Virus record (IMG/VR): IMGVR_UViG_3300027996_000023
Span: 1-64,000 of that record
Reading direction: 5' to 3' (one strand)
From: a virus
Length of the DNA: 64,000 nt
How positions within the stretch are numbered: the stretch's first letter is position 1; every line of letters begins with the position of its first letter. Positions 3,001 through 44,704 of the stretch are shown in pieces. Below the pieces are notes generated by a model that was not told the origin of the DNA, did not search any database, and worked only from the letters and a program-made list of their open reading frames with translations. The position numbers were made by a program, and so were the translations under genes.

Positions 3001-4264
3001 GGTAGGCTGACATTACCTGCTCTGGGGTGTCAATTCCAAGCTCATTGGCAACTTGTCGAGTCCTTATTTTGGCATCCCTAACTAAAGGTTCGTTTCTAGC
3101 CTTTTGTAGCAGATAAGTTCTTGTTTCTGCTCGCTCTGTCCCAGCAAGACCTAGTTCGTCTAATGTTGCCGCTATCTGTTCGTCTGAATATACTTTTAAG
3201 AATTTTTTTGCAGCTTTTTTTTCATGGTGAAGAATATGACGATCCTCGTCTGACAGCTTTTTGTAGTTAGGAGAGTTTTTGTATAAAGTCTCAATCTCTA
3301 AAAGTTCTCTTGCTTCATCTCTTTTTTCAAGTTCAATATCCTCTAAAGCTTCTTGAGTAGGGAGGTCTTTTTCTTCAGCACTAGGGGTTCCCTTAGCAGC
3401 TTTTCGCTCTAATATTTGCCATGCAGATTTGTTTCTTACATCTAACTCTCTAACTGGTACCTCGACTTCTTCTTTTGGCTTGACTGCTATCTCGTCTTTT
3501 ATGTACTCGTCCAGGTAGGTTTTAAACTTATCGGGAGAGCTTTCGCTGAAATTAGACGATATGTAATTGTGTTTTTTTTGCTTTAAGCCCCCTATTTCTC
3601 CTTCGTAAAACTCTTCGCTTTTATTGCTTAATGCGGCATGAGTTTGTTTGTCTAAGCTACCAGAAGCCAATCTTTTGTCTCGAACCTTTGCTTCAGCATC
3701 CCTCTGATCTTCCATCTCCTTGATCTTAGTATCCATGCCTGTTGGGTATTTGTACACAGGGTCATCATCCCACTCACTTTTAAGTGACAAGTCAGTGTAA
3801 TATAGATTCAAGTAAACATCTCTCTCTGTAGTTCCTCCAGACTCAATGGCTTGAGCTATGGCTGGATTGCTAGATATGTAATCTGGATTCTCCTTGGTAA
3901 ACTTCTCAATGTATTTGTCAAGATCTGGTGGTTCTTCGACACTGAATTTTTCAGAAATTCTCTTCTTCTGAGATTGCTCTTGCGAAAGCGTGGATGGCTT
4001 TGGCAAGCCAGTTTCGGAATCTGGCGAAATAGCCTTTTCTTTTTTTTTTAACTGAGAAGCTAAGTCCCCAGCAAACTGAGAAGCAAAATCATCTATAGTT
4101 TTGGTGTACATTTTATCTTCTGACAAGTCATTCCATAGCATGTGCCTGTATTCGGCATCATCCATAGATGTGTTAAATGTATCTTCTGTTGTATCTTCAT
4201 TTATGTACCCTTCTTTTTTTAGTAAAAGAAGTAATTTAGCCCTAGATTCTTTTGGTCCTGCCAT
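1..4264 (-). CDS. Giant virion/ejection protein, N-terminal part (cut by left edge)
   Basis: Open without a stop from an ATG at 4264 (MAGPKESRAK...) to the window edge, at least 1421 residues. Very rich in Lys and Glu with long stretches likely to be coiled coil. A hydrophobic Ala/Gly/Met-rich segment around residues 660-720 (for example MAPMMGASAAAFKAS) could insert in a membrane. It is the last of three consecutive large proteins downstream of the tail nozzle, the position where crAss-like phages carry capsid cargo and ejected proteins, including the giant virion RNA polymerase. I saw no catalytic motif in the visible part, so the RNA polymerase idea is not supported directly. The C-terminus may lie beyond the left edge, or appear at the right edge of this window if the genome is permuted. 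Confidence 0.8.
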   Translation of the reverse strand, partial: MAGPKESRAKLLLLLKKEGYINEDTTEDTFNTSMDDAEYRHMLWNDLSEDKMYTKTIDDFASQFAGDLASQLKKKEKAISPDSETGLPKPSTLSQEQSQKKRISEKFSVEEPPDLDKYIEKFTKENPDYISSNPAIAQAIESGGTTERDVYLNLYYTDLSLKSEWDDDPVYKYPTGMDTKIKEMEDQRDAEAKVRDKRLASGSLDKQTHAALSNKSEEFYEGEIGGLKQKKHNYISSNFSESSPDKFKTYLDEYIKDEIAVKPKEEVEVPVRELDVRNKSAWQILERKAAKGTPSAEEKDLPTQEALEDIELEKRDEARELLEIETLYKNSPNYKKLSDEDRHILHHEKKAAKKFLKVYSDEQIAATLDELGLAGTERAETRTYLLQKARNEPLVRDAKIRTRQVANELGIDTPEQVMSAYQKETSDVLERYNKQVADKVDDMKVAGKEMDDQHKKEVEAYHSSAKNQLTEFQEELQGMVASGQMDAQKANDLFDQRQTFLQSKGVELYKAFVKRRTKYQSNQMTQMERLGLTKTGILADVEKLKSKYNIKGKGFTKEYMNEYQAVWQTVVGEEEYKNRVKKDLEWDNMEFSRKIAVSLKKGASSLLESAGLGVKWFAPGLDFPDLIIEDIADFREGAATKDYTGYTLLEKIASPEFLMTTALEQLPIMAPMMGASAAAFKASTGLMAKFGGISAKTRIFAASLAGGASSRFVESRMEEWNVVQNKLTSGATWEEAYESGRTVRNKNLALMAFDSFQTYIAFGKKPVQLITSKGFKKSTTMQSIMGIGKDLGLTFASGASEELLQEYWSALEFNPMLELSAFAMSEEGKEIMAIGGLMEMGFALNGALNHRSGLSSVNDRFTSFFDDMKVDEVGLGDMENRSQQLIHTLEHLKAREMLEPEEYTQAMNAINQTVENFKKSFNGDLPFSWKDDRLKKYAAFSGEAEAIRVKAEALPKSKKHEKEILENRAKALDKEVDRLFAEPDGYSYAIDGVPMSKSEFESIVNNPKNLSQLEGHRIDTDDVELRAKLIGESGLASERIKTIETAKTFVEENSEGMGVDYAIQLAEKQAEKQKEVVSELEGAKDSEYREAVQKEREIDALLQGLGALKAEEKATVSQAVEEKESQLLDAATDHLSKERVKVRSVENIEKSVSELEGKNESVIGEVFDMEAKMLLDISKGELIEEVDGNPTKEYLDAKVAIAKKKQEVRANNETIQGLNIMAREEAFKKAAAPLEVDEATEVVEAKEEGKKEEDFDSKDQAEFEAERKEMRGRKPTSEEFFNLVNRLPDGTVIKGEEDDTRVVVKKQKTKKGTENVWLESQLKNEETGEWEVMDVGNSSKKADGSFPKHKIPGTFTDESLTFEKPAKEKTVPEGKKEEGKKELEQKAAKEKTVPEAKYPMEEKGKWWGDEDYKSRGGVMTE

Positions 4265-26154: not shown

Positions 26155-26494
26155 CTTCTATAGCTTTAACCAACCCAGCATCTAAGCTATTCCCCTCCCT
26201 TACGGAAAAGAATACTTTAAGATCTGAATGATGACAAACAATTAACTTCCTTCCATCTCCTGTGTCAAACTCAAACTTCTGAGTGACTGGCTTGAGAACA
26301 ACTACCCCTACTTCTATCTGGTCATCCCAAGGAATAAACTCCCTCTCTTGACTTGTAGGCTTACTAAAAGACACGATTTTGGCCAACTGAGGCTGGCTAT
26401 GTCTTACTTCCCCAAACATTTGTGGCCCCTTGTGCCTTATTGTAACATCCTCTAACAAGACATGACCCACCCTAGGTTTTATTTCTTTATCCAT
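26138..26494 (-). CDS. GroES-like co-chaperonin, single domain
   Basis: 118 aa with a GroES-type order: an early strand (VGHVLLEDVTIRHKG, the mobile-loop region being RHKGPQMFGEVRHSQ), a middle AKIVSFSKP, the IEVGVVVLKPV strand and a closing HHSDLKVFF strand. Overlaps the GroEL-like stop by one base (TAATG) and overlaps the double-GroES gene by 17 bp, so all three are coupled. Less certain than the neighbour because the canonical VGD is VGV here. Confidence 0.6.
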   Translation of the reverse strand: MDKEIKPRVGHVLLEDVTIRHKGPQMFGEVRHSQPQLAKIVSFSKPTSQEREFIPWDDQIEVGVVVLKPVTQKFEFDTGDGRKLIVCHHSDLKVFFSVREGNSLDAGLVKAIEDGQLR

Positions 26495-28317
26495 TATACA
26501 ACATTATTTACTTTTAACAAATCTAATCTCCTATATAACTCCCTAATGGATTCTTTATCGATCTGATCAGGCAACTTCTCGTCCTCGCTAACCTGCCCTA
26601 CAACACTCTCTACCTTATCCTCGACCAACGCATACTTAGCATGAATCAATTGTTTAGCTACAGATACCGCATTCTTCAAGGCAGATATGCACACCAGCGT
26701 AGGATCTATTATCCCTTCAGTAAACATATCTCCAATTAATTCTCCTCTGGCATCCCATCCCATCCACAAATCTTTACCCAGCTTCGGGTGCAAATGCAAT
26801 AACTGAGATATATCCCCCATAACTGTAGTCTTATCCTTGCCCGTATAATTTCCTATAACATAATAAGCTGGAATCCCTGCAGCCAACAAAACCATACTAT
26901 ACCCACTATAATAGCTATCCATAACCCTAGTGCCTTGCACCATTTCATTCCTAAACTTACTCAACTGATGCAAAGCACTCCAATAAGCACGACCAGCTCC
27001 AGGTACAACACCCCCCTTTAAAGCAGTAAAGCATGCTTGTGACGTATCATCAACAGCATGCTCAATCCTATGCGCCTCTGTATCAGAATCCGCACCAACA
27101 TAAACCACCCCAATTCCACTACTTAAAGCTGCAATACGCTGCTCTAAAAAAGCTATCTCCCCTTCCTTCTTAGAATCCTTAATCTCCCTCTCCAGCACCC
27201 TAATCCTATAAACACTATCATAGTCCGAATTAGGCACTATACTACACTGGTTAAGGCTCACTATACATCTACGAGCACTACCAAACTCTTTCCAAGTCTC
27301 ATCCGCATCCATTTCATCTTCCATAAAGTCTTGGCCAAAAGAATCTTTTATTGGCTTTCCCCTAGAAGTCAAATACACTTGATGTGTCTGCGTCATGTCA
27401 GCCAAGTCACTCATTATATCCCAACCTTGATTGCCGCCAAAAGGTGGCTGAACTACATAAACAGGATGCTTCTCCGCATTAGCAGAGATAAAAGACCTTG
27501 CTCCTCCTGTCAATCCTGTAGTAACAATAACCAAAGGACGTATATTCCCATTCTCCCCTCTAAGCTCATTAGAACTCAACCACGCATCAATAACAGGAAT
27601 AATCTCCATATCATGCTCGAAGTGATCTGCATTCATTATAAACAAAGGGTTCTCCAATACTACCTCCCCCTCCATCTTGTCCTTCAAGTGCTGTCTACCC
27701 AACAGCACCGTATCAAATGTATAACCAGGCAACCTATCACAATAAGTAGTATGCCCCAAATTCCTCTTTATAGTAACCCGACCATGAATACCTACATCAT
27801 ACACTAGATCACTAACCATCCCAGCTATATTCTCATCCCCATTACAGGCAATCATAGCAACATGCCTTAAAGCATCCTTATCTATATTCCCACTATCTCC
27901 CACTATCTTGCGGCTACTACCCTCTAAATGGTCTATAATATCCTTAACAGCACCATCCATGCCACTCAAAAAGTCCCTCTTATCAAAACCACCATTCTTG
28001 TATGTCTCATTCCAAAGCCCATAAATAGCAGACAACAAACACACCGTTGTTGTCGTACCATCACCAACTTCCTTAACAGTCCTGTTTGCCGCATCAATTA
28101 TCATCCTTGCTATCAACTGGTCCAAACTCCCCCTAGGAGCAATATGCCTACTAACAGTAACCCCATCCTTGGTAGCCATAGCACCAAAGGTAGATTGTAT
28201 CAATATAACAGCACCCCCTGGCCCCATTGTAGATGTAATAATATCAGAATAGCGCCCTATTAAAGATGCTATCAAATCCCCACTCTTAGAAACGTCTATA
28301 TGTTTACTATGTCCCAT
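26494..28317 (-). CDS. groEL: GroEL-like chaperonin (group I)
   Basis: 607 aa, about 60 longer than E. coli GroEL. Signature parts in order: GPGG near residue 32, TKDGVTVSRHI near 49, VGDGTTTT near 83, DDTSQACFTALKGGVVPGAG near 425, and GIIDPTLVCISALKNAVSVA near 545. The three ATPase aspartates of GroEL (D52, D87, D398) are all matched. The C-terminal GGM repeats are absent. It is the upstream member of a three-gene chaperonin block preceding terminase and capsid genes. The likely role is folding of phage structural proteins, which is inference from context. Confidence 0.92.
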   Translation of the reverse strand: MGHSKHIDVSKSGDLIASLIGRYSDIITSTMGPGGAVILIQSTFGAMATKDGVTVSRHIAPRGSLDQLIARMIIDAANRTVKEVGDGTTTTVCLLSAIYGLWNETYKNGGFDKRDFLSGMDGAVKDIIDHLEGSSRKIVGDSGNIDKDALRHVAMIACNGDENIAGMVSDLVYDVGIHGRVTIKRNLGHTTYCDRLPGYTFDTVLLGRQHLKDKMEGEVVLENPLFIMNADHFEHDMEIIPVIDAWLSSNELRGENGNIRPLVIVTTGLTGGARSFISANAEKHPVYVVQPPFGGNQGWDIMSDLADMTQTHQVYLTSRGKPIKDSFGQDFMEDEMDADETWKEFGSARRCIVSLNQCSIVPNSDYDSVYRIRVLEREIKDSKKEGEIAFLEQRIAALSSGIGVVYVGADSDTEAHRIEHAVDDTSQACFTALKGGVVPGAGRAYWSALHQLSKFRNEMVQGTRVMDSYYSGYSMVLLAAGIPAYYVIGNYTGKDKTTVMGDISQLLHLHPKLGKDLWMGWDARGELIGDMFTEGIIDPTLVCISALKNAVSVAKQLIHAKYALVEDKVESVVGQVSEDEKLPDQIDKESIRELYRRLDLLKVNNVV

Positions 28318-33027: not shown

Positions 33028-33241
33028 GGTCTCTTTTTTTTTTCTGTTTTTGTTTCTGAGTGCAGGTATATATATATCTACTTTCCTGTAATACGCTTAC
33101 TTATATATAAAGCCTATAATTTACATTATGTTAAGTAGACACTTAATAGATTGACTATCAATCACTTAGCAAATTCACTTTCAGCAAACTGTTTAGAAAT
33201 GTAAGTTAGGACACTTTTTGCGGCAAAACGTTCTACCTATT

Positions 33242-33304
33242 TACACGTGTGTGCACGTGTGTGCGTGTGTGTGTGTGTGTACGTGTGTGCACGTGCACGT
33301 GTAT
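33242..33304. repeat. Alternating purine-pyrimidine tract (GT/AC/GC), Z-DNA-prone
   Basis: About 63 bp in which purine and pyrimidine alternate without a break, mostly GT with CACGTG-like blocks. Such DNA readily adopts the left-handed Z form under negative supercoiling. Very unusual in this AT-rich genome. Confidence 0.85.
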
Positions 33305-33535
33305 TTTTCATTTAGGAATGTAATTTTTTTTAGCTGATAGGATTCTATCTGTACATTAACACAACGACCTATTTTTGTATTTTATGCCGTTTTAGTGGTT
33401 TTTTTCAATAGATCTATAAAGTTTTAAATTTATTTTTAATTTATTTTTTAGCCTTGAAACCCTTTATATATCGAAGGTACAGCTATTATGCCTGACAAAT
33501 AGATTTAACTTTATAAAATCTTTTTTATTAAAACA

Positions 33536-33739: not shown

Positions 33740-33961
33740 ATGCCATTTGAAAATTTAATGAATTCACTCAGTAAAGAACAAAAAACTGAGGTTCTTGAAA
33801 ATGCCGCCCTATATGAATATATATTTTTTGATATTAGCGTTGGTGCTGCTATTACATTAGAGTTTTTAGACGACTTTCCAGAATTTGAGGAAAACGGGTA
33901 TAGCTGTGTTTTGTATGCAGAAGAGTGTTTCAATTTTCTATACGCTGAGAAGTTTATCTAA
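33740..33961 (+). CDS. Hypothetical acidic protein, 73 aa
   Basis: First gene of the rightward module. MPFENLMNSLSKEQKTEVLE... helical, strongly acidic (EFLDDFPEFEENG). Small acidic early phage proteins often act as DNA mimics or inhibitors of host enzymes; there is no direct sign of that here. Followed within 10 bp by the first tRNA-like element. Confidence 0.7.
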   Translation: MPFENLMNSLSKEQKTEVLENAALYEYIFFDISVGAAITLEFLDDFPEFEENGYSCVLYAEECFNFLYAEKFI

Positions 33962-33968
33962 AAAAGGT

Positions 33969-34031
33969 TAGTTGTAAGAAAAAAGGTTCTGAGATTCTTT
34001 CTTGTGGGTTCGACTCCCACTACAGCTACTA
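33969..34031 (+). ncRNA. tRNA-like element, copy 1
   Basis: 7-bp acceptor stem AGTTGTA/TACAGCT (one G-U), T-arm GTGGG-TTCGACT-CCCAC with canonical T-loop, then A and CTA. Only 27 nt lie between acceptor and T-arm, too few for normal D and anticodon arms; they can form one A/U-rich hairpin. It starts 8 bp after the stop at 33961. Confidence 0.75.
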
Positions 34032-34065
34032 AAAATATTTTACCACAATTTTAAATAAGCTAACT

Positions 34066-34335
34066 ATGAAAATTACAATGCACAGCACGAAATTAGAAAA
34101 AAATCCAAACACAAAAACAACGTATCTAAAAGGTGAAACCATAAAAAAGGAAATCACAAAAGAACAGTATCACAATATTACTAATGATAGCACCCTCAAA
34201 GCATTTCGAAGGTTTGGGGGTTTTGAATATGCCGTAAGAAGTTACACTTGTAACGGATACAACGTTACAAGATTAACCTCCACAAGTCCAGACAAGCAAA
34301 CAAAGCACATAAGAGAATTTTCGTTCGAGTGCTAA
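34066..34335 (+). CDS. Hypothetical basic protein, 89 aa
   Basis: MKITMHSTKLEKNPNTKTTY... Lys/Thr-rich, ending KHIREFSFEC. The end alternates polar and apolar residues, suggesting a small beta fold. Start preceded by GCTAACT-ATG. Flanked by tRNA-like copies 1 and 2. No family recognised. Confidence 0.68.
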   Translation: MKITMHSTKLEKNPNTKTTYLKGETIKKEITKEQYHNITNDSTLKAFRRFGGFEYAVRSYTCNGYNVTRLTSTSPDKQTKHIREFSFEC

Positions 34336-34342
34336 AAAAGAT

Positions 34343-34406
34343 TAGTTGTAAGAAAAAAAGGTTCTGAGATTTTATCTTGTGGGTTCGACTCCCACTACAG
34401 CTACTA
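34343..34406 (+). ncRNA. tRNA-like element, copy 2
   Basis: Same design as copy 1: AGTTGTA/TACAGCT acceptor, identical T-arm, CTA end, 28 nt between. Begins directly after the stop of the 89-aa gene. Confidence 0.75.
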
Positions 34407-34443
34407 AAAATATTTTTCTACCACTTTAAAAAATCTAACTGTT

Positions 34444-34716
34444 ATGATTTTTCCCTCTGAAATGTCAATTTATTTTGACAAGTATAATGCTAAAACGGCT
34501 GAGTTCTTTGCACTTCCTTTTTACTGCAAAAATGAGTATTATTTTACTTTGGATTTTTGGTTGGGTAACGACCAAGAACAAATCGAAGGAATAATATATA
34601 AGAAAAAAGGTTTTTTAATTATAGAACCTAATAATGATATTTTATATTTTTCAGAACCTCAGCAAGCAAGCATTTTAGATTTTATTAAATCATCTTTCCT
34701 AAAATCTAAAAAATGA
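34444..34716 (+). CDS. Hypothetical protein, 90 aa
   Basis: MIFPSEMSIYFDKYNAKTAE..., rich in aromatic residues with alternating strands (EYYFTLDFWLGNDQEQIEG, GFLIIEPNNDILYF). Start context CTAACTGTT-ATG. Overlaps the next gene by 4 bp (ATGA), so this block of four genes (34444-35537) is a coupled run without tRNA-like separators inside it. Confidence 0.68.
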   Translation: MIFPSEMSIYFDKYNAKTAEFFALPFYCKNEYYFTLDFWLGNDQEQIEGIIYKKKGFLIIEPNNDILYFSEPQQASILDFIKSSFLKSKK

Positions 34717-35096
34717 AAAAATTTACAATTCGTAGACATTTGAGCAAAGGTCAATATTTTGGTTTCTTTCAAGTCAGAGGATATATAACAGACAGTAAAC
34801 AAGGAGAAGTCCTTTTTTATGTCAATCCAGAAACTCAAAACCTTGTTATGCAAGATTGTATTTTACATAACAAGGTTAACCAAAGTATAAAAATTTTTGA
34901 AGGCCAAAATAAAAGGCCTTGTGCCTACATTATTTGCGGCAAAGTTGAAGTAAAAGACGCCACAAGGGTTGAGGGTATAAAAGTATCTTATAACCCGAAA
35001 AAAAGTCCAAATTGGACTATAAATAACAAGCCGTCAAATTTTGCGAAGGTCAATAAAATTGAAACATTTGGGACTAAACTTTTTGGGCTCAGTTAA
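34713..35096 (+). CDS. Hypothetical basic protein, 127 aa
   Basis: MKKFTIRRHLSKGQYFGFFQ... beta-rich and basic. Contains two cysteines and ends NKIETFGTKLFGLS. Could be nucleic-acid binding by charge. Coupled to the previous gene. Unknown function. Confidence 0.66.
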   Translation: MKKFTIRRHLSKGQYFGFFQVRGYITDSKQGEVLFYVNPETQNLVMQDCILHNKVNQSIKIFEGQNKRPCAYIICGKVEVKDATRVEGIKVSYNPKKSPNWTINNKPSNFAKVNKIETFGTKLFGLS

Positions 35097-35109
35097 AAAA
35101 AATCTAAAA

Positions 35110-35334
35110 ATGTACATTAACAAAAAATTTGAAGATAGAGATTATATATTTTGTCTTGTCTCTATAGCCTTATACAATTTGCCTAATAATGATAGCTCAG
35201 ATTTTGAGCTATACAAACAAGCAAAAAAAATAGCTGAGCAGCTATTTAACGACTACAGAAAAGACAAAATAAATACAATAGGGTTCGATGATTCGGACAC
35301 AATTTTAATTTATACAAAAAATTACAAAAAATGA
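35110..35334 (+). CDS. Hypothetical protein, 74 aa
   Basis: Start taken at 35110 (MYINKKFEDRDYIFCLVSIA), because the longer frame runs into the previous gene. Helical, mixed charge; ends with Lys/Tyr. Overlaps the next gene (ATGA). No family recognised. Confidence 0.64.
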   Translation: MYINKKFEDRDYIFCLVSIALYNLPNNDSSDFELYKQAKKIAEQLFNDYRKDKINTIGFDDSDTILIYTKNYKK

Positions 35335-35537
35335 CAAACTTAGAAAAAATTGAGTCTCTATTCATAGGAGATTCTATAATAGACCTAAATGGCAAACAGA
35401 TTGAAAAAATGAAGGAAAATGTATATTATATACATTGTACTTCGAGCGGTTGGAAAACTGCCACAGTTACAAAAACGGAGTTGATTGAAGTTTTTGTGAC
35501 AGGAAAAAAAGACTTGCTGAGTCTTATTTGGGAGTGA
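35331..35537 (+). CDS. Hypothetical protein, 68 aa
   Basis: MTNLEKIESLFIGDSIIDLN... with the strand YYIHCTSSGWKTATVTKTEL. Compact alpha/beta pattern. Last of the coupled run before tRNA-like copy 3. Unknown function. Confidence 0.65.
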   Translation: MTNLEKIESLFIGDSIIDLNGKQIEKMKENVYYIHCTSSGWKTATVTKTELIEVFVTGKKDLLSLIWE

Positions 35538-35569
35538 TTTTTTTCAACTCCATAGAAAAAGCTGTAAGA

Positions 35570-35621
35570 AAAAAGGTTCTGAGATTTTATCTTGTGGGTT
35601 CGACTCCCACTACGGCTGCTA
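35570..35621 (+). ncRNA. tRNA-like element, copy 3
   Basis: AGCTGTA/TACGGCT acceptor (one U-G pair), T-arm identical to the others, then G and CTA. The base changes against copies 1 and 2 keep pairing intact. Confidence 0.75.
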
Positions 35622-35653
35622 AAAATATTCTACCACAATTTTAAATAACTATT

Positions 35654-35803
35654 ATGTATACAACCAGAATAATAATAGGCTTAATTCTTTGCCTATTATT
35701 GGATCGATCCAACAGAAAAGAGAATAGGTATAGCATAACACTTTGTATCCTAATTTATGGCAGTGTTACACTAATTTTATCACATTTATACACAACTATA
35801 TAA
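35654..35803 (+). CDS. Small two-pass membrane protein, 49 aa
   Basis: MYTTRIIIGLILCLLLDRSN then a charged turn (RKENR) and a second hydrophobic helix (ITLCILIYGSVTLILSH). Start has the ATT-ATG context seen at the other genes following a tRNA-like element, and the stop lies one base before the next ATG. Topology hairpin in the inner membrane is likely; role unknown. Confidence 0.62.
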   Translation: MYTTRIIIGLILCLLLDRSNRKENRYSITLCILIYGSVTLILSHLYTTI

Positions 35804-35804
35804 A

Positions 35805-36023
35805 ATGATATTACCAGCAAAAAAGTTTGACGAAAGTCAAGAGGAAAATTGGCAAGAATATAAGGCCAAATGTAAAAAAAATAATTGCGAGCCTCAAAAT
35901 AGAAATAATTTTAATCAATTTATTTTGTGTGAAAAAAAGTACGGTTTTGTGCTTTGCGGCACATATTGGAAGTGGGCAAAGCGAAAAAAGGATTTAGAAC
36001 CGTATAACCCTAATTTTCCCTAA
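35805..36023 (+). CDS. Hypothetical protein, 72 aa
   Basis: MILPAKKFDESQEENWQEYK... Lys-rich with four cysteines (CKKNNCEPQ, FILCEKKYGFVLCG) that could bind zinc. Ends KDLEPYNPNFP. Followed by tRNA-like copy 4. No family recognised. Confidence 0.66.
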   Translation: MILPAKKFDESQEENWQEYKAKCKKNNCEPQNRNNFNQFILCEKKYGFVLCGTYWKWAKRKKDLEPYNPNFP

Positions 36024-36027
36024 AGGT

Positions 36028-36090
36028 TAGCTGTAAGAAAAAAGGTTCTGAGATTCTTTCTTGTGGGTTCGACTCCCACTACAGCTACTA
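36028..36090 (+). ncRNA. tRNA-like element, copy 4
   Basis: Perfect 8-bp outer stem TAGCTGTA/TACAGCTA, standard T-arm, CTA end; starts 5 bp after the stop at 36023. Confidence 0.78.
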
Positions 36091-36127
36091 AAAATATTTT
36101 TCTACCACAATTTTAAATAAGCTAACT

Positions 36128-36487
36128 ATGAAAAAATTGCTATTAATTACTGTTCTAATAATTTGCTTTTTGGGGCTCAGCGAAAAAAGCTATAGCCAAA
36201 GTACAAAAACATATTCTTTTACTCTTGCTTTGGGGCAAGCTTCTGAGTTAAATCAACTACCTCAAAATTTGACTGTAAAGAAAATAAAAGGGTCCAGAAT
36301 TATAGTGGAAATTAAGGTTGTTTCTAAAAATGCAAGTTGCAAAGTTATAGATGCGCTGCAAAAGTCGTTTAGATACGCTATAGACCTAAACGACTTTTCT
36401 TTTCCAAACATGGAAAAAAGGGTTTTTATAAATGGAGTAGAAATTTTAGAGCAAATTTTTATAACCGTTTACTATCCTGTAAACTAA
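36128..36487 (+). CDS. Secreted protein, 119 aa
   Basis: Signal peptide MKKLLLITVLIICFLGLSEK with SYSQ (likely cleavage near residue 24), then a beta-rich mature part (TYSFTLALGQASELNQLP) of about 95 residues. Exported to the periplasm or surface of the host; could take part in superinfection exclusion or envelope change (inference). Start context GCTAACT-ATG. Confidence 0.72.
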   Translation: MKKLLLITVLIICFLGLSEKSYSQSTKTYSFTLALGQASELNQLPQNLTVKKIKGSRIIVEIKVVSKNASCKVIDALQKSFRYAIDLNDFSFPNMEKRVFINGVEILEQIFITVYYPVN

Positions 36488-36494
36488 AAAAGGT

Positions 36495-36557
36495 TAGCTG
36501 TAAGAAAAAAGGTTCTGAGATTTTATCTTGTGGGTTCGACTCCCACTACGGCTACTA
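36495..36557 (+). ncRNA. tRNA-like element, copy 5
   Basis: AGCTGTA/TACGGCT acceptor with an extra outer T-A pair, standard T-arm, CTA end. Starts 8 bp after the secreted-protein stop. Confidence 0.75.
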
Positions 36558-36589
36558 AAAATATTCTACCACAATTTTAAAAAACTATT

Positions 36590-36883
36590 ATGAAAAAGTT
36601 GAATGAGTTAAAAAATTATAGAAAGATAGATGCTAGATTCGTCCACCCTAACAACACCAGGGGCGCAAGAATATGTATAGAAGAAAAGAAAAGGTATAAC
36701 GACTGTACTGTTAAGCGAAAATATTTTTCATGTGGTGATAAGCCACTACAAGAACAAGCTTTTGACATTCTTACTAAAAACGGGTTTAATGTTATCTGCT
36801 TAACGTCAAACGCTGAAAGTTACGGGTTCTTATGTGATAATTGGGCAGAAAATTACATAGAAATTAGTGACATAAAAGCCTAA
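36590..36883 (+). CDS. Hypothetical protein, 97 aa
   Basis: MKKLNELKNYRKIDARFVHP... alpha/beta with cysteines in CTVKRKYFSCGDK and VICLTSNAESYGFLC. Ends NYIEISDIKA. No family recognised. Flanked by tRNA-like copies 5 and 6. Confidence 0.68.
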   Translation: MKKLNELKNYRKIDARFVHPNNTRGARICIEEKKRYNDCTVKRKYFSCGDKPLQEQAFDILTKNGFNVICLTSNAESYGFLCDNWAENYIEISDIKA

Positions 36884-36889
36884 AAAGGT

Positions 36890-36952
36890 TAGCTGTAAGA
36901 AAAAAGGTTCTGAGATTTTATCTTGTGGGTTCGACTCCCACTACGGCTGCTA
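36890..36952 (+). ncRNA. tRNA-like element, copy 6
   Basis: AGCTGTA/TACGGCT acceptor, standard T-arm, G then CTA. Starts 7 bp after the previous stop; CTACCACA box follows at 36961. Confidence 0.75.
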
Positions 36953-36984
36953 AAAATATTCTACCACAATTTTAAAAAACTATT

Positions 36985-37269
36985 ATGAAAAATATTAATC
37001 TATTGACTATTCAATCTGCTATCGTTATTGATAGCAGCAAAAATACAAACAACACAACTATATTTACATACGTGTACGACCTATCTATAGGATTTAAAAA
37101 CGGCATATCTTCTAGTGCTAGGATAGGTAAGTTTGTTCACGTAGGAAGCTATGACAGCCTACTACAGGAACAGAAGGAAAAATCCTTAGCCTACTTAGGG
37201 CTCAGTAAAAATAATGTAGCTACGATTAAATATAGCTACGATTTTAAAAACAAAAAATATTTTAAATAA
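36985..37269 (+). CDS. Hypothetical protein, 94 aa
   Basis: MKNINLLTIQSAIVIDSSKN... beta-rich, Ser/Tyr/Lys-rich, with KFVHVGSYDSLLQEQKEKSL as a central helix. Ends YDFKNKKYFK. Unknown function. The next gene follows after 15 bp without a separator. Confidence 0.66.
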   Translation: MKNINLLTIQSAIVIDSSKNTNNTTIFTYVYDLSIGFKNGISSSARIGKFVHVGSYDSLLQEQKEKSLAYLGLSKNNVATIKYSYDFKNKKYFK

Positions 37270-37891: not shown

Positions 37892-37945
37892 ATTTTAAGA
37901 GGATGATACGATAATTATTTCTACCACATTTAAAATACACTAACT

Positions 37946-38431
37946 ATGCAAACTTTATTTTCCACTCCCACAGCTACAGAAGTCGAAGTGAAAACAGTAA
38001 GAGAATATATTCTTACTGTTAAGCACAATAATACAAACTTTGTGCAACCAGAAATAAAAAGCAGTCAAGATGCTGCAAATGCATGTAGAAATTTGTTTGG
38101 AGACGATTTGTATATATACGAATCATTCTACATTCTTTTACTATCTCAAATGAATAAAGTTACTGGATATGTAAAAATAAGTCATGGAGGCATGAGTGGG
38201 ACTGTAGTAGACGTCAAATTAATAGCCAAATATGCTATCGAAAGTTTGAGTCCGGCAATAATTCTTTGTCACAATCATCCTTCTGGAAATTTAGAACCAA
38301 GCAGAGCAGATAAAGCTATCACTATAAAAATAAAAAAAGCATTGAGCTTTTTAGATGTGGCAGTATTGGACCACATTATATTGGCTCAGGAGAATTATAC
38401 CTCTATGGCAGATGAGTGCTTAATGGGGTAA
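37946..38431 (+). CDS. radC: RadC-like JAB-domain protein
   Basis: 161 aa. C-terminal JAB/MPN metallo-domain: LLLSQMNKVTGYVKISHGGM, then ILCHNHPSGNLEPSRADKAI (the HxH...S...D zinc-site signature) and VLDHIILAQENYTSM. Family members are the C-terminal 'RadC' domain, common in phages and genomic islands. Despite the name, DNA repair is not proven; they may act as peptidases or nucleases. The usual N-terminal helix-hairpin-helix is absent. Has its own promoter. Confidence 0.88.
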   Translation: MQTLFSTPTATEVEVKTVREYILTVKHNNTNFVQPEIKSSQDAANACRNLFGDDLYIYESFYILLLSQMNKVTGYVKISHGGMSGTVVDVKLIAKYAIESLSPAIILCHNHPSGNLEPSRADKAITIKIKKALSFLDVAVLDHIILAQENYTSMADECLMG

Positions 38432-39132: not shown

Positions 39133-39186
39133 CAGCTAAGATACAGGTATCAAAAAAAAGGGGTTCGATTCCCCTTTTAGCTGCAA
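39133..39186 (+). ncRNA. Variant mini tRNA-like element
   Basis: Different sequence, same design: acceptor AGCTAAG/TTTAGCT, T-arm AGGGG-TTCGATT-CCCCT, discriminator G then CAA. The 18 nt between hold a small hairpin GATAC-AG-GTATC, in the place of a D-arm, and a run of A. It starts right after the previous stop codon. Confidence 0.68.
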
Positions 39187-42569: not shown

Positions 42570-42956
42570 ATGGCTGAGTGCGATATTGAAAAAAATAAGC
42601 TTATCTTTAAGAGTGCGATAGGCAAAATAATTTCTGTTCCATTCTCTGCTAATACTTCTGAGGATTTCTTTCTCCAGGTATTGTCGCATATTATGGTAAC
42701 AAAATTTAATTACTTTATAAAAAAAGTAAATGCAGATCAGTTTAATTGTCTGCGGTTTTTTAATCCCTACAAAGGTTCGCATGGATGCTTGCAAGATAAG
42801 TGGGGGCACAAGTGCCAGATGCATATTAGGCCACGAAATTTTGAGGATTTGCTTGTGTTGATGCATAGAATAGGGTTCGATGTTAAGTTGATTTTTGATG
42901 GCCAAGAATATGAAAAAGATATCTTTCATAAAGTTTGGTCAATAACAGCTCTATGA
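42570..42956 (+). CDS. Hypothetical protein, 128 aa
   Basis: Start taken at 42570 (MAECDIEKNKLIFKSAIGKI) to avoid overlap; an earlier ATG at 42498 is possible and would add 24 residues. Contains HGCLQDKWGHKCQMHIRPRN, a Cys/His-rich stretch. Stop overlaps the next gene's start. Unknown function. Confidence 0.6.
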   Translation: MAECDIEKNKLIFKSAIGKIISVPFSANTSEDFFLQVLSHIMVTKFNYFIKKVNADQFNCLRFFNPYKGSHGCLQDKWGHKCQMHIRPRNFEDLLVLMHRIGFDVKLIFDGQEYEKDIFHKVWSITAL

Positions 42957-43780
42957 TGGATATTTCAGATTTAAAAATAAGGATATTAATATCTTTTAGT
43001 GGTGGAGAGAGCTCTGCCTTTATGCTTATTCAGCTATGGAATAGGTATAAAAACAGGCTTGATGTGGAAATATTAGTATGCTTTGCTAATACTGGGGATG
43101 AAGAAGAAGAAACCTTGATTTTTGTAGAAAAAGTCTCCAAGGTTTATTCAATTCCCGTTACATGGTTAGAGGCTTATGTTTCTCCTGTAATGGGTTTAGG
43201 GGTAATGCCTGTAATTGTAGACTTCGACATTGCATCAAGGGATGGTGCTCCCCTGTTAGATCAATCTGAAAAAGTAGGGGCTTGTGGAATATCCACTCCC
43301 CACTGTACTAGGGATTTAAAAATAAGATGCATACAAAAATATGCTAAGGCTTATTTTGAAAAACAACCCTTTTATACTGCTATGGGGATGCGATTTGACG
43401 AGCAAATAAGGATCGACTGGGATAGGGCTAATCGAGAAAGGTTTATATATCCTCTTGTAAATACCTTTAGGGTGTACAAAGCAGATGTTAGAACCTACTG
43501 GAGAAAGCATAAAGAAAAATATGGATGGAGGCTTAATTTGCAGCCACATCAAGGAAATTGTGTGTTGTGCCATAAAAAAGAAGAGCGGAAGCTTGTAAGG
43601 CTTATTCGAGAAAAGCCTTGTAGGGCTATATTTAGAATGACCCTTACTCTTGTGTCAGCTACAGATGAATATGATATGTATAGAGGGCACTGTGACATTT
43701 GGGATTTATTAGAAAAAGCGAAGTCGGATACTCCGGAGGATTTATTCTCATCTTTTGGTGGCTCTTGTTTTTGCGGTTAA
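42953..43780 (+). CDS. PP-loop enzyme, PAPS reductase-like
   Basis: 275 aa from ATG at 42953 (MMDISDLKIR). PP-loop ISFSGGESSAFML near residue 13, the typical LVCFANTGDEEEETLIFVEKV strand, a cysteine in CGISTPHCTRDLK, and C-terminal cysteines NCVLCHKKEE and GGSCFCG that could hold iron-sulfur or zinc. The family (PAPS reductase / adenine nucleotide alpha hydrolase) activates a substrate with ATP; members act in sulfur metabolism, tRNA thiolation and DNA modification. Here the next gene is a second PP-loop enzyme, so a two-enzyme pathway is likely. Substrate unknown. Confidence 0.82.
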   Translation: MMDISDLKIRILISFSGGESSAFMLIQLWNRYKNRLDVEILVCFANTGDEEEETLIFVEKVSKVYSIPVTWLEAYVSPVMGLGVMPVIVDFDIASRDGAPLLDQSEKVGACGISTPHCTRDLKIRCIQKYAKAYFEKQPFYTAMGMRFDEQIRIDWDRANRERFIYPLVNTFRVYKADVRTYWRKHKEKYGWRLNLQPHQGNCVLCHKKEERKLVRLIREKPCRAIFRMTLTLVSATDEYDMYRGHCDIWDLLEKAKSDTPEDLFSSFGGSCFCG

Positions 43781-43789
43781 ATAAAAAAA

Positions 43790-44704
43790 ATGCAATTATC
43801 TATACTTGAATGCTTGGAAGATTCTTGGAGGTATCAAGACAAGAATGTTATGATAGGACTAAGCGGAGGGATTAATTCTGCTGCTGTTCTGGTGTATCTT
43901 GTAAATTACGTACCCAAGGATGAGTGGCCTGACGTTTTGCATTTGTACTATGCTCATTTTGAAGAGCATAGTCCAGATACTATGGATTTTGTATTGGCCT
44001 TGGTAAAGTACGCTAAAGATCACTTTAAAAAGGTTGTCTTTGAGATGACTGAAAATAGTGTGAACAGATACTTTATTGATGCTGGTATGATTCCACATCC
44101 TACTCGGTCTACCTGTACTGGAATATTGAAAATCTTTCCTATGGCTGAGTATATGCATGACAATAAGATCGATGTAGATTTAGTGGGCTATGTTAGGGAG
44201 GATAAGAGTCGCATTAAGCGGCAGAAAAAATACATTGAGTCCAAGAAGAAAAACAGGACTGGCAAAGGGAAGGCTATGAAGAAAAAAGAGCACCCTATAG
44301 CCCATCTTAGCGATGAAGATTGTTTTTCCTTGGTTGAGAAGCATCTTGGTCCTGGTGTGGTGCCGGATATATATAAGATAAAATGGAATGACAAAAGGAT
44401 TATTCCATTCTTGAAGTGCCATAAAGAATTTATACCCCAAGACCAATACAAAGTTGTAATGGCTTATGCTAGGGCTGGGTACAATATAAAAAAACACTCT
44501 TACAGGGTGTTTGACCATAATAATTGCTTGCCTTGTAAGAACATGCAAAGCTGGCAGCTATACATGGTAAAGCTTTTCTACCCTAAGAAATTTGAGAGGG
44601 CTATAGAAACTGCCGAACAGTTAGGGCAGTTCTGGGGGAGAAATGCTGACGAAATGAGTAGAGCTGGACAGGACGCTTCTTGTTCTTTTTGCCAGATGGA
44701 TTAA
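43790..44704 (+). CDS. Second PP-loop ATPase with C-terminal cysteines
   Basis: 304 aa. PP-loop VMIGLSGGINSAAVLVYL near residue 21, then a long region with a basic insertion (RQKKYIESKKKNRTGKGKAM, residues about 145-165). C-terminal cysteine pairs are CLPCKNMQSWQLYM near residue 252 and CSFCQMD at the end, as in thiolation or deazapurine-type enzymes. It follows its sister gene after 10 bp. The shared layout (PP-loop plus late CxxC) suggests joint work on a nucleotide or RNA/DNA base; no single family can be assigned by eye. Confidence 0.75.
   Translation: MQLSILECLEDSWRYQDKNVMIGLSGGINSAAVLVYLVNYVPKDEWPDVLHLYYAHFEEHSPDTMDFVLALVKYAKDHFKKVVFEMTENSVNRYFIDAGMIPHPTRSTCTGILKIFPMAEYMHDNKIDVDLVGYVREDKSRIKRQKKYIESKKKNRTGKGKAMKKKEHPIAHLSDEDCFSLVEKHLGPGVVPDIYKIKWNDKRIIPFLKCHKEFIPQDQYKVVMAYARAGYNIKKHSYRVFDHNNCLPCKNMQSWQLYMVKLFYPKKFERAIETAEQLGQFWGRNADEMSRAGQDASCSFCQMD

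Follow-up and report, generated by a model that had tools for sequence, protein, structure and literature searches.

Background

tRNA-shaped processing signals are already known from several systems. In mitochondria, RNase P and RNase Z excise tRNAs from between the mRNAs of polycistronic transcripts, and the tRNA-like 3' end signals of MALAT1 and NEAT1, mascRNA and menRNA, are cut by the same two enzymes. Here we describe seven miniature tRNA-like elements (E1 to E7) in a marine bacterial virus, IMG/VR record IMGVR_UViG_3300027996_000023, of which 64 kb out of 70.9 kb (positions 1 to 64,000, hereafter the window) were analysed. These elements probably act as punctuation in a polycistronic phage transcript, to be cut by the RNase P and RNase Z of the host. 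What is new about them is their location in a phage operon and their smaller form.

As in mitochondria, the tRNA-shaped marks stand directly between a stop codon and the next gene on the sense strand, and excision at both ends is predicted. The mitochondrial marks are decoding tRNAs, however, whereas those described here are non-decoding, phage-encoded and located in a bacterium. mascRNA and menRNA are likewise non-decoding miniature cloverleaves of about 60 nucleotides (nt), but they are mammalian and occur once per long non-coding RNA, whereas the phage elements occur in many copies per operon and, in the class B described below, shrink to about 43 nt. The tRNA-like structures of turnip yellow mosaic virus and tobacco mosaic virus are also viral tRNA mimics and are RNase P substrates in vitro, but they are 3'-terminal and pseudoknotted and are not internal punctuation. 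Non-tRNA substrates of bacterial RNase P include the phi80 M3 RNA, the P1/P7 C4 antisense RNA, the his operon mRNA and the T4 gene 32 mRNA; to our knowledge, these have no T arm with an elbow and no intergenic repetition. They are single cases, stem-loops or pseudoknots (PMC11143913, PMC12710915). Engineered tRNA-guide arrays of the polycistronic kind and a minimal scaffold, delta-tRNA, use an acceptor/T arm stripped of D loop and anticodon as a cutting signal between RNAs (PMC6445147); these are synthetic and used in mammalian cells, whereas the natural elements retain a D-loop-like GG. Neither the Rfam families nor full-text searches of the open-licence literature gave a description of tRNA-like punctuation elements in a phage, in line with a preliminary description of this DNA, which knew of no such system; this absence is not proof.

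Anatomy of the elements

The preliminary description reported six near-identical elements, each with a 7-bp acceptor stem and the same T arm, and these are indeed present on the + strand from 33970 to 36949 (Table 1). E1 to E6 are 59 or 60 nt long including the discriminator (58-59 without it), are 90-99% alike, and fold in all six copies into a four-way mini-cloverleaf with zero linker nucleotides. In order, the parts are the 7-bp acceptor, a hairpin AGAA-AAAAGG-UUCU, a second hairpin GAGAU-UUU-AUCUU (or GAGA-UUCUU-UCUU), and the T arm GUGGG-UUCGACU-CCCAC, which is identical in 6/6 copies. The gap between acceptor and T stem measures 27 nt (28 in the second copy), as had been noted, and it lacks the D and anticodon arms of a tRNA, but it is not featureless, since the two hairpins are formed within it in every copy. 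The GG closing the loop of the first hairpin lies where a D loop would give G18-G19 to the T loop, and with a mini D-like arm retained the earlier wording "too truncated" was an overstatement. Differences in the stems are limited to C-G to U-G and U-A to U-G changes in two acceptor pairs, and the earlier observation that pairing is kept by G-U wobble holds for 100% of the cells. No two-sided change occurs among the six copies, and P2, P3 and the T stem are invariant, so that covariation within this family cannot test these stems.

The count of six has to be raised by one, as a seventh, diverged element lies at the position given for E7. Its layout is AGCTAA-GATA CAGG TATC-A(n)-AAGGGG TTCGATT CCCCTT-TTAGCT-G-C, with an 18-nt gap between acceptor and T stem and an additional C-G pair (39133/39183) that lengthens the stem. 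E7 has almost no sequence in common with E1 to E6, yet it follows an equal plan: a 12-bp stack, the GATA-CAGG-TATC hairpin, an A-rich spacer and the T arm AAGGGG-UUCGAUU-CCCCUU. It was detected in three ways, by a sequence-rich covariance model (R1) built on the six window copies (E 0.0115), by the structural descriptor given below, and by an independent model (R2) of class B (E 3e-4). The letters that follow the stem in the window elements are A-C-U-A, G-C-U-A or G-C-A-A.

All seven elements possess the 7-bp acceptor, 5-bp T stem and TTCRANN loop of a tRNA and lack a D arm and an anticodon arm with a 7-nt loop, with the at least about 41 nt between acceptor and T stem that go with them. ARAGORN, run on the full 70.9 kb of the record, found zero tRNAs, and Rfam gave zero matches in the window, with neither the tRNA family RF00005 nor any tRNA-like family at gathering score. 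Judged by these features, the elements are not canonical tRNA genes, and no anticodon arm fit for decoding is predicted in them.

The number of elements is far above chance expectation. With up to 3 mismatches allowed, the 64 kb contain the T-arm string 6 times, where 0.04 occurrences would be expected. A descriptor consisting of the 7-bp acceptor, the 5-bp T stem and the TTCRANN loop, with a gap of 8-75, matched exactly 7 places in the window, where dinucleotide shuffles gave 0.05 on average. It matched none in the other 6.9 kb of the record and none in the reversed sequence. The folding z-scores of E1 to E6 are modest (-1.7 to -2.6 per copy), so fold energy by itself is not the evidence.

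Position between genes

Each of the seven elements starts 1-22 nt past a stop codon and ends 28-40 nt ahead of an ATG. In Table 1, E1 to E6 run from acceptor nucleotide 1 to the discriminator N73, from which the distance to the ATG is measured. Five of E1 to E6, rather than the four reported earlier, begin within 10 nt of the preceding stop; for the distance to the next ATG, first given as 32-38 bp, the values counted from N73 are 35-40 nt.

Table 1. Coordinates in the window of the miniature tRNA-like elements, the genes around them and the repeated leader
Feature	Position	Strand	Preceding stop codon (distance)	Following ATG (distance)	Remarks
E1	33970..34028	+	33961 (8 nt)	34066 (37 nt)	Acceptor 33970-33976/34021-34027, T arm 34004-34020, N73 34028
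E2	34344..34403	+	34335 (8 nt)	34444 (40 nt)	Gap 28
E3	35560..35618	+	35537 (22 nt)	35654 (35 nt)	
E4	36029..36087	+	36023 (5 nt)	36128 (40 nt)	
E5	36496..36554	+	36487 (8 nt)	36590 (35 nt)	
E6	36891..36949	+	36883 (7 nt)	36985 (35 nt)	
E7	39134..39183	+	39132 (1 nt)	39212 (28 nt)	Sequence-diverged
Leader, E1 instance	34029..34068	+			CTAAAAATATT..ACCACAATTTTAAA..ATG, repeated 3' of each of E1-E6
Small genes punctuated by E1-E6, part 1	33740-33961, 34066-34335, 34444-34716, 34713-35096, 35110-35334, 35331-35537	+			
Small genes punctuated by E1-E6, part 2	35654-35803, 35805-36023, 36128-36487, 36590-36883, 36985-37269	+			
RadC/JAB-domain gene	37946..38431	+			Just 3' of the array; 48.9% identical to the Gundel_1 homologue

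The whole intergenic block of ~105 nt is repeated, including the leader CTAAAAATATT..CCACAATTTTAAA..ATG, and between 1 and 4 genes of the block 33740..37269 (+) separate successive elements. Kindred (C)CACATTTAAA..ATG leaders occur without an element at 37921, 39600, 40320 and other places, which suggests that this sequence is a translation leader and not part of the element. Since the closely packed element-free genes of the operon share the (C)CACATTTAAA..ATG leader, the element itself reads as an insert between the stop codon and the translation leader, not as a promoter or leader. A promoter within the leader was also considered and was dropped because the CACATTTAAA leader heads tightly packed downstream genes as well.

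Miniature elements in related phages

A search of other phages with a covariance model, as the preliminary description had proposed, and with the descriptor revealed further miniature families. The comparison set was 4.25 Mb of Bacteroidetes-type phages related to the window phage, collected by terminase-based searches that gave about 220 loci of the phage group (labelled L and a number), with full or nearly full records for about 25. A strict 12-bp version of the descriptor, which set no condition on the GG, the base 3' of the stem or the position, matched 25 places in this set, about 18 of which are intergenic miniature elements; the same 4.25 Mb reversed gave 0 matches, and 1.2 Mb of bacterial DNA gave 1 chance match. 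Matches in L151, L015 (-), L210, L138 and L205 were set aside as chance (position lacking, inside genes, or antisense to a tRNA), and a candidate at 6802-6848 of L215 was rejected as it did not form the required fold.

By descriptor and covariance model together, about 11 further independent families were recognized (L098, L249, two in L267, L273, L086, L192/L193, L222, L196, L186/L187, and 787-843 of the cultured Tenacibaculum phage Gundel_1), all with stem sequences unrelated to those of the window. They are intergenic and on the sense strand, mostly 0-11 nt past a stop codon and 9-47 nt ahead of a start codon. The sense strand relative to the neighbouring genes is used in 13/13 families, and an open reading frame (ORF) of at least 40 amino acids with an ATG 9-45 nt downstream is found in 11/13. 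At random positions, such an ORF start is found in 6.7% of cases, a stop codon 0-10 nt upstream in 2.1%, and both in 0.18%. In L267 two elements bracket a single 512-amino acid gene, one 25 nt ahead of its ATG and the other 9 nt past its stop. In Gundel_1 the element opens the early operon: an unannotated 43-amino acid ORF starts 43 nt past it, and a short way downstream is the RadC/JAB gene, whose window homologue comes after the array; the Gundel_1 and window elements thus share a neighbourhood and differ in sequence.

Two structural classes can be distinguished. Class A contains a small hairpin with a loop that ends in GG in 6/8 families (window AAAAGG, E7 CAGG, L098 ..AUGG, L249 AAUCGG, L267a AAACGG, Gundel_1 UUUAGG), with shuffle probabilities of 0.0005 to 0.12 each. 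Class B is reduced to the 12-bp stack and a bulge of 9-11 nt, approximately NAYGGUNYUNG. In class B 60/60 pair cells are standard, two-sided changes are seen in 9/12 pairs, and the covariation score is 1.05 as compared with 0.27 for shuffled and at most 0.24 for slid structures, values that are partly ascertained because stem pairing was a search criterion. The homologous elements of L192 and L193 differ in a T-stem pair, which is A-U in L192 and U-A in L193, and the class B model recovers both L086 (E 4e-8) and E7 from outside its training set.

The features conserved across families are the 12-bp acceptor/T stack, the T loop, the D-loop-like GG and a C just past the stem. This C is present in 13/13 families, after one nucleotide in nine and directly after the 12-bp stack in four; in the latter, reading it as N73-C74 needs an 11-bp stack. 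Position 74 is also C in 44/44 ordinary tRNAs of the flavobacterial relatives (L013, L015, L016, L131, L018), and among those listed none runs on as CCA, so the miniature elements bear the tRNA 3' signature of their own phage group. The partial CCA ending at C74 is perhaps a determinant for RNase P or RNase Z in this group. Ordinary tRNAs of some relatives (Arg-UCU, Ile-UAU) are located 15-25 nt ahead of an ATG inside operons. This arrangement suggests a graded series, with real tRNAs serving as punctuation at one end and stripped-down marks at the other.

Several other structures were seen in the relatives. Intermediate tRNA-like elements of 73-91 nt, mostly missed by ARAGORN, lie directly upstream of genes at L404 17112-17202, L430 2454-2527, L443 16742-16831 (-) and L441 2139-2224, those of L443 and L441 preceding homologues of the L267 gene that is flanked by two elements. 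Elements ahead of that homologue in L213/L441 are too long (86-90 nt) and were not counted as miniature. Gundel_1 (L012) has stem-closed structures with a TCGG..CCGA inner stem and less canonical T loops in its gaps 1266-1362 and 3259-3354, the first followed by the shared ACTAAAA tail and the other by AACAAAA; these are possibly degenerate or alternative punctuation elements. At 46978-47087 of L014 (68787-68896 of Gundel_1) an annotated 110-nt tRNA-Tyr, not recognized by ARAGORN, has two serial T arms and lies between two genes. An unannotated tmRNA-like (transfer-messenger RNA-like) 3' end of phi38:1 (GGACGAGGGTTCGATTCCCTCCGCCTCCAC; L013 26801-26847, -) is found about 30 nt ahead of the gp040 start. 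Of the elements in relatives that were compared with Rfam, none matched a family; the one match was to an unrelated Pistol ribozyme in L249. This self-cleaving ribozyme (188-251, -; E 5e-7) is on the same strand as the L249 miniature element and about 470 nt downstream of it, and by its Rfam match is a second kind of RNA scissors in that phage region. The R1 model recovered chiefly ordinary tRNAs in the relatives.

Proposed mechanism

Bacterial RNase P recognizes the 12-bp acceptor/T stack and the T loop joined to the D-loop GG, and RNase Z recognizes the acceptor/T arm. At the level of sequence, the elements hold the determinants for RNase P (12-bp stack, T loop, D-loop GG, N73-C74). As the retained features make up the recognition set of RNase P and RNase Z while the decoding parts are gone, excision of the element, or at least the 5' cut by RNase P, is predicted, and this would separate early mRNAs from one another. 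Versions of unrelated sequence in the same kind of place in distant relatives make it probable that the elements are cutting signals. What was observed is the anatomy, position, recurrence and covariation of the elements; from these we infer that they are transcribed within a single RNA, fold in vivo and are cleaved, and likewise which enzymes act and how the phage benefits.

The elements would be transcribed within the rightward operon; co-transcription of the flanking genes is suggested by their close spacing and by the absence of terminators. Each element would then fold into the coaxial 12-bp acceptor/T stack. A normal T loop would close the stack, the GG would be set for a D-loop/T-loop elbow, and the C would lie 3' of the stem. 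Host RNase P would bind the elbow, the stack and the 3' N-C and cut on the 5' side, so that the upstream mRNA would end 1-22 nt past its stop codon. The 3' side would be trimmed by the RNase Z of the host, or by 3' exonucleases following another cut, leaving the next mRNA with a 5' end about 28-40 nt ahead of its start codon. The phage would thus have shed decoding features and retained those that end-processing enzymes read.

Published work on RNase P is consistent with this scheme. The RNA of RNase P forms pairs with the 3' RCC of its substrate, and a model substrate altered at C74 was no longer cleaved (PMC12710915). The phage M3 and C4 RNAs as well as mRNAs are cleaved by RNase P (PMC11143913). 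In a tRNA engineered to lack the D loop and anticodon, complete loss of the D loop impaired 5' processing (PMC6445147), which fits the GG retained in the phage elements.

Some observations weigh against this reading. The elements do not encode CCA or C75, which weakens cleavage by bacterial RNase P in vitro, and four families require the 11-bp stack for N73-C74. The elements of L098 and L186/L187 are not directly 3' of a stop codon. The six copies in the window vary too little for a covariation check of P2, P3 and the T stem, and the class B covariation is partly ascertained, while the GG, the C and the position (bulge and flanks) were not criteria in the unfiltered strict scan. The processing signals inferred in the preliminary description are nevertheless the best reading of these elements, backed by about 11 independent intergenic cases, compensatory changes, the C and the GG; its claim that both enzymes excise the mRNAs stays at the level of a prediction. 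On balance, we also lean towards the wider view that these elements form a new miniature tRNA-like class, widespread in marine Bacteroidetes phages, which would be a general RNase P/RNase Z punctuation system with the about 43-nt forms as natural minimal RNase P substrates.

Alternative explanations

It is conceivable, if unlikely, that the elements are decaying tRNA genes, acquired and lost by phages, surviving by chance between genes and spread by repeat recombination. Many tRNAs with an equal N-C end are present in phi38:1, Panino and Gundel_1, and the odd intermediate 73-91-nt elements of some relatives would suit such a history. Decay should erode the anticodon arm no faster than the acceptor and T arm, however, whereas in unrelated families the stems keep perfect pairing and show two-sided changes. 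It is also always the identical part that is lost, the elements are always intergenic and on the sense strand, and zero canonical tRNA is left in the window phage.

We give rather little credence to a role as a barrier to mRNA decay, similar to that of repetitive extragenic palindromic (REP) sequences, in which the folded element, uncut by tRNA enzymes, keeps exonucleases off the 3' end of the preceding mRNA or blocks decay. A stable structure starting a few nucleotides past the stop codon would be expected of such a barrier, and the non-canonical stem-closed structures of Gundel_1 (1266-1362 and 3259-3354) occupy similar gaps of ~100 nt. This explanation accounts neither for the conserved T loop and GG, nor for a length fixed at 12 bp or a C past the stem, nor for elements ahead of first genes, as in L098 and Gundel_1.

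Improbable, too, is that the released miniature tRNA is itself the product, as a small RNA acting, for example, as a decoy for tRNA-modifying or tRNA-attacking enzymes or as an aid to initiation of the next gene. A 58-nt tRNA-like RNA would be released if the elements were cut, as with mascRNA, so that this possibility is compatible with cutting, and the elements are located 28-40 nt ahead of start codons. Between families, though, only architecture and position are kept and not sequence; nearby element-free genes have a similar leader, and a free decoy would need no location between stop and start.

A role at the DNA level, either as an att site in a tRNA gene or as integron-like attC sites that shuffle small gene cassettes, is very improbable. 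The repeated blocks between unrelated small genes, with six copies so closely alike, do resemble cassette borders. With up to 1 mismatch allowed, the 3' half of the elements found no match in 395 genomes of the sampled class, which disfavours remnants of tRNA integration, as had been argued before; the host is not identified, so this result is not absolute. The class B model gave zero matches in 46 bacterial genomes of the one order sampled, and so no sign of such elements in prophages there. Wobble pairs are used as in RNA, and recombination would not need an architecture common to families of unrelated sequence.

Transcription terminators or attenuators for each small gene have a negligible chance of being correct: there is a GC-richer stem past the stop codons, but the tail CTAAAAATATT is without a U tract, which excludes terminators, and a scan for intrinsic terminators found zero on the + strand at E1 to E7.

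Genomic setting

The GC skew of the window switches near 33 kb, at the junction of the leftward structural genes with the rightward small-gene operon, and E1 to E7 all fall within the first 5.5 kb of that operon. Between the divergent operons, at 33240-33305, is a non-coding, alternating GT/CA-rich tract with a 20-bp imperfect palindrome, a candidate origin or regulatory region. The large terminase is ~25% identical to homologues of Flavobacterium Elemovirus, Cellulophaga phi38:1, Maribacter Panino and Tenacibaculum Gundel_1, and the GroEL and giant virion protein of the window phage are also present in these relatives. The positions 26494-28317 and 42935-44704 hold the phage GroEL plus two adjoining phosphoadenosine phosphosulfate reductase-like genes.

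Relatives of the window phage could be reached only via terminase alignment. Single-protein searches with the terminase and a 174-amino acid gene of the window gave zero close relatives, and BLASTN of the region in question against 50,697 phage records gave zero matches. A search of 2.9 million viral contigs with DNA patterns of the window family, exact as well as degenerate, found zero relatives; five matches of a shorter pattern were discounted as chance since the structure was absent.

Implications

The elements escape tRNA finders and Rfam. If the punctuation reading is true, they would account for part of the untranslated intergenic sequence in this large marine phage group. If they are cut, phages would have evolved tRNA punctuation independently of mitochondria, and their mRNA ends would be shaped by host tRNA enzymes with no phage nuclease needed. 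The minimal requirement of RNase P and RNase Z is a long-standing question that has so far been addressed with synthetic substrates, and the series from full tRNA through the miniature element with only a D arm to the 43-nt miniature element with only an elbow offers a test set for the minimal needs of both enzymes in vivo. The elements would also provide compact processing signals for building operons in Bacteroidetes.

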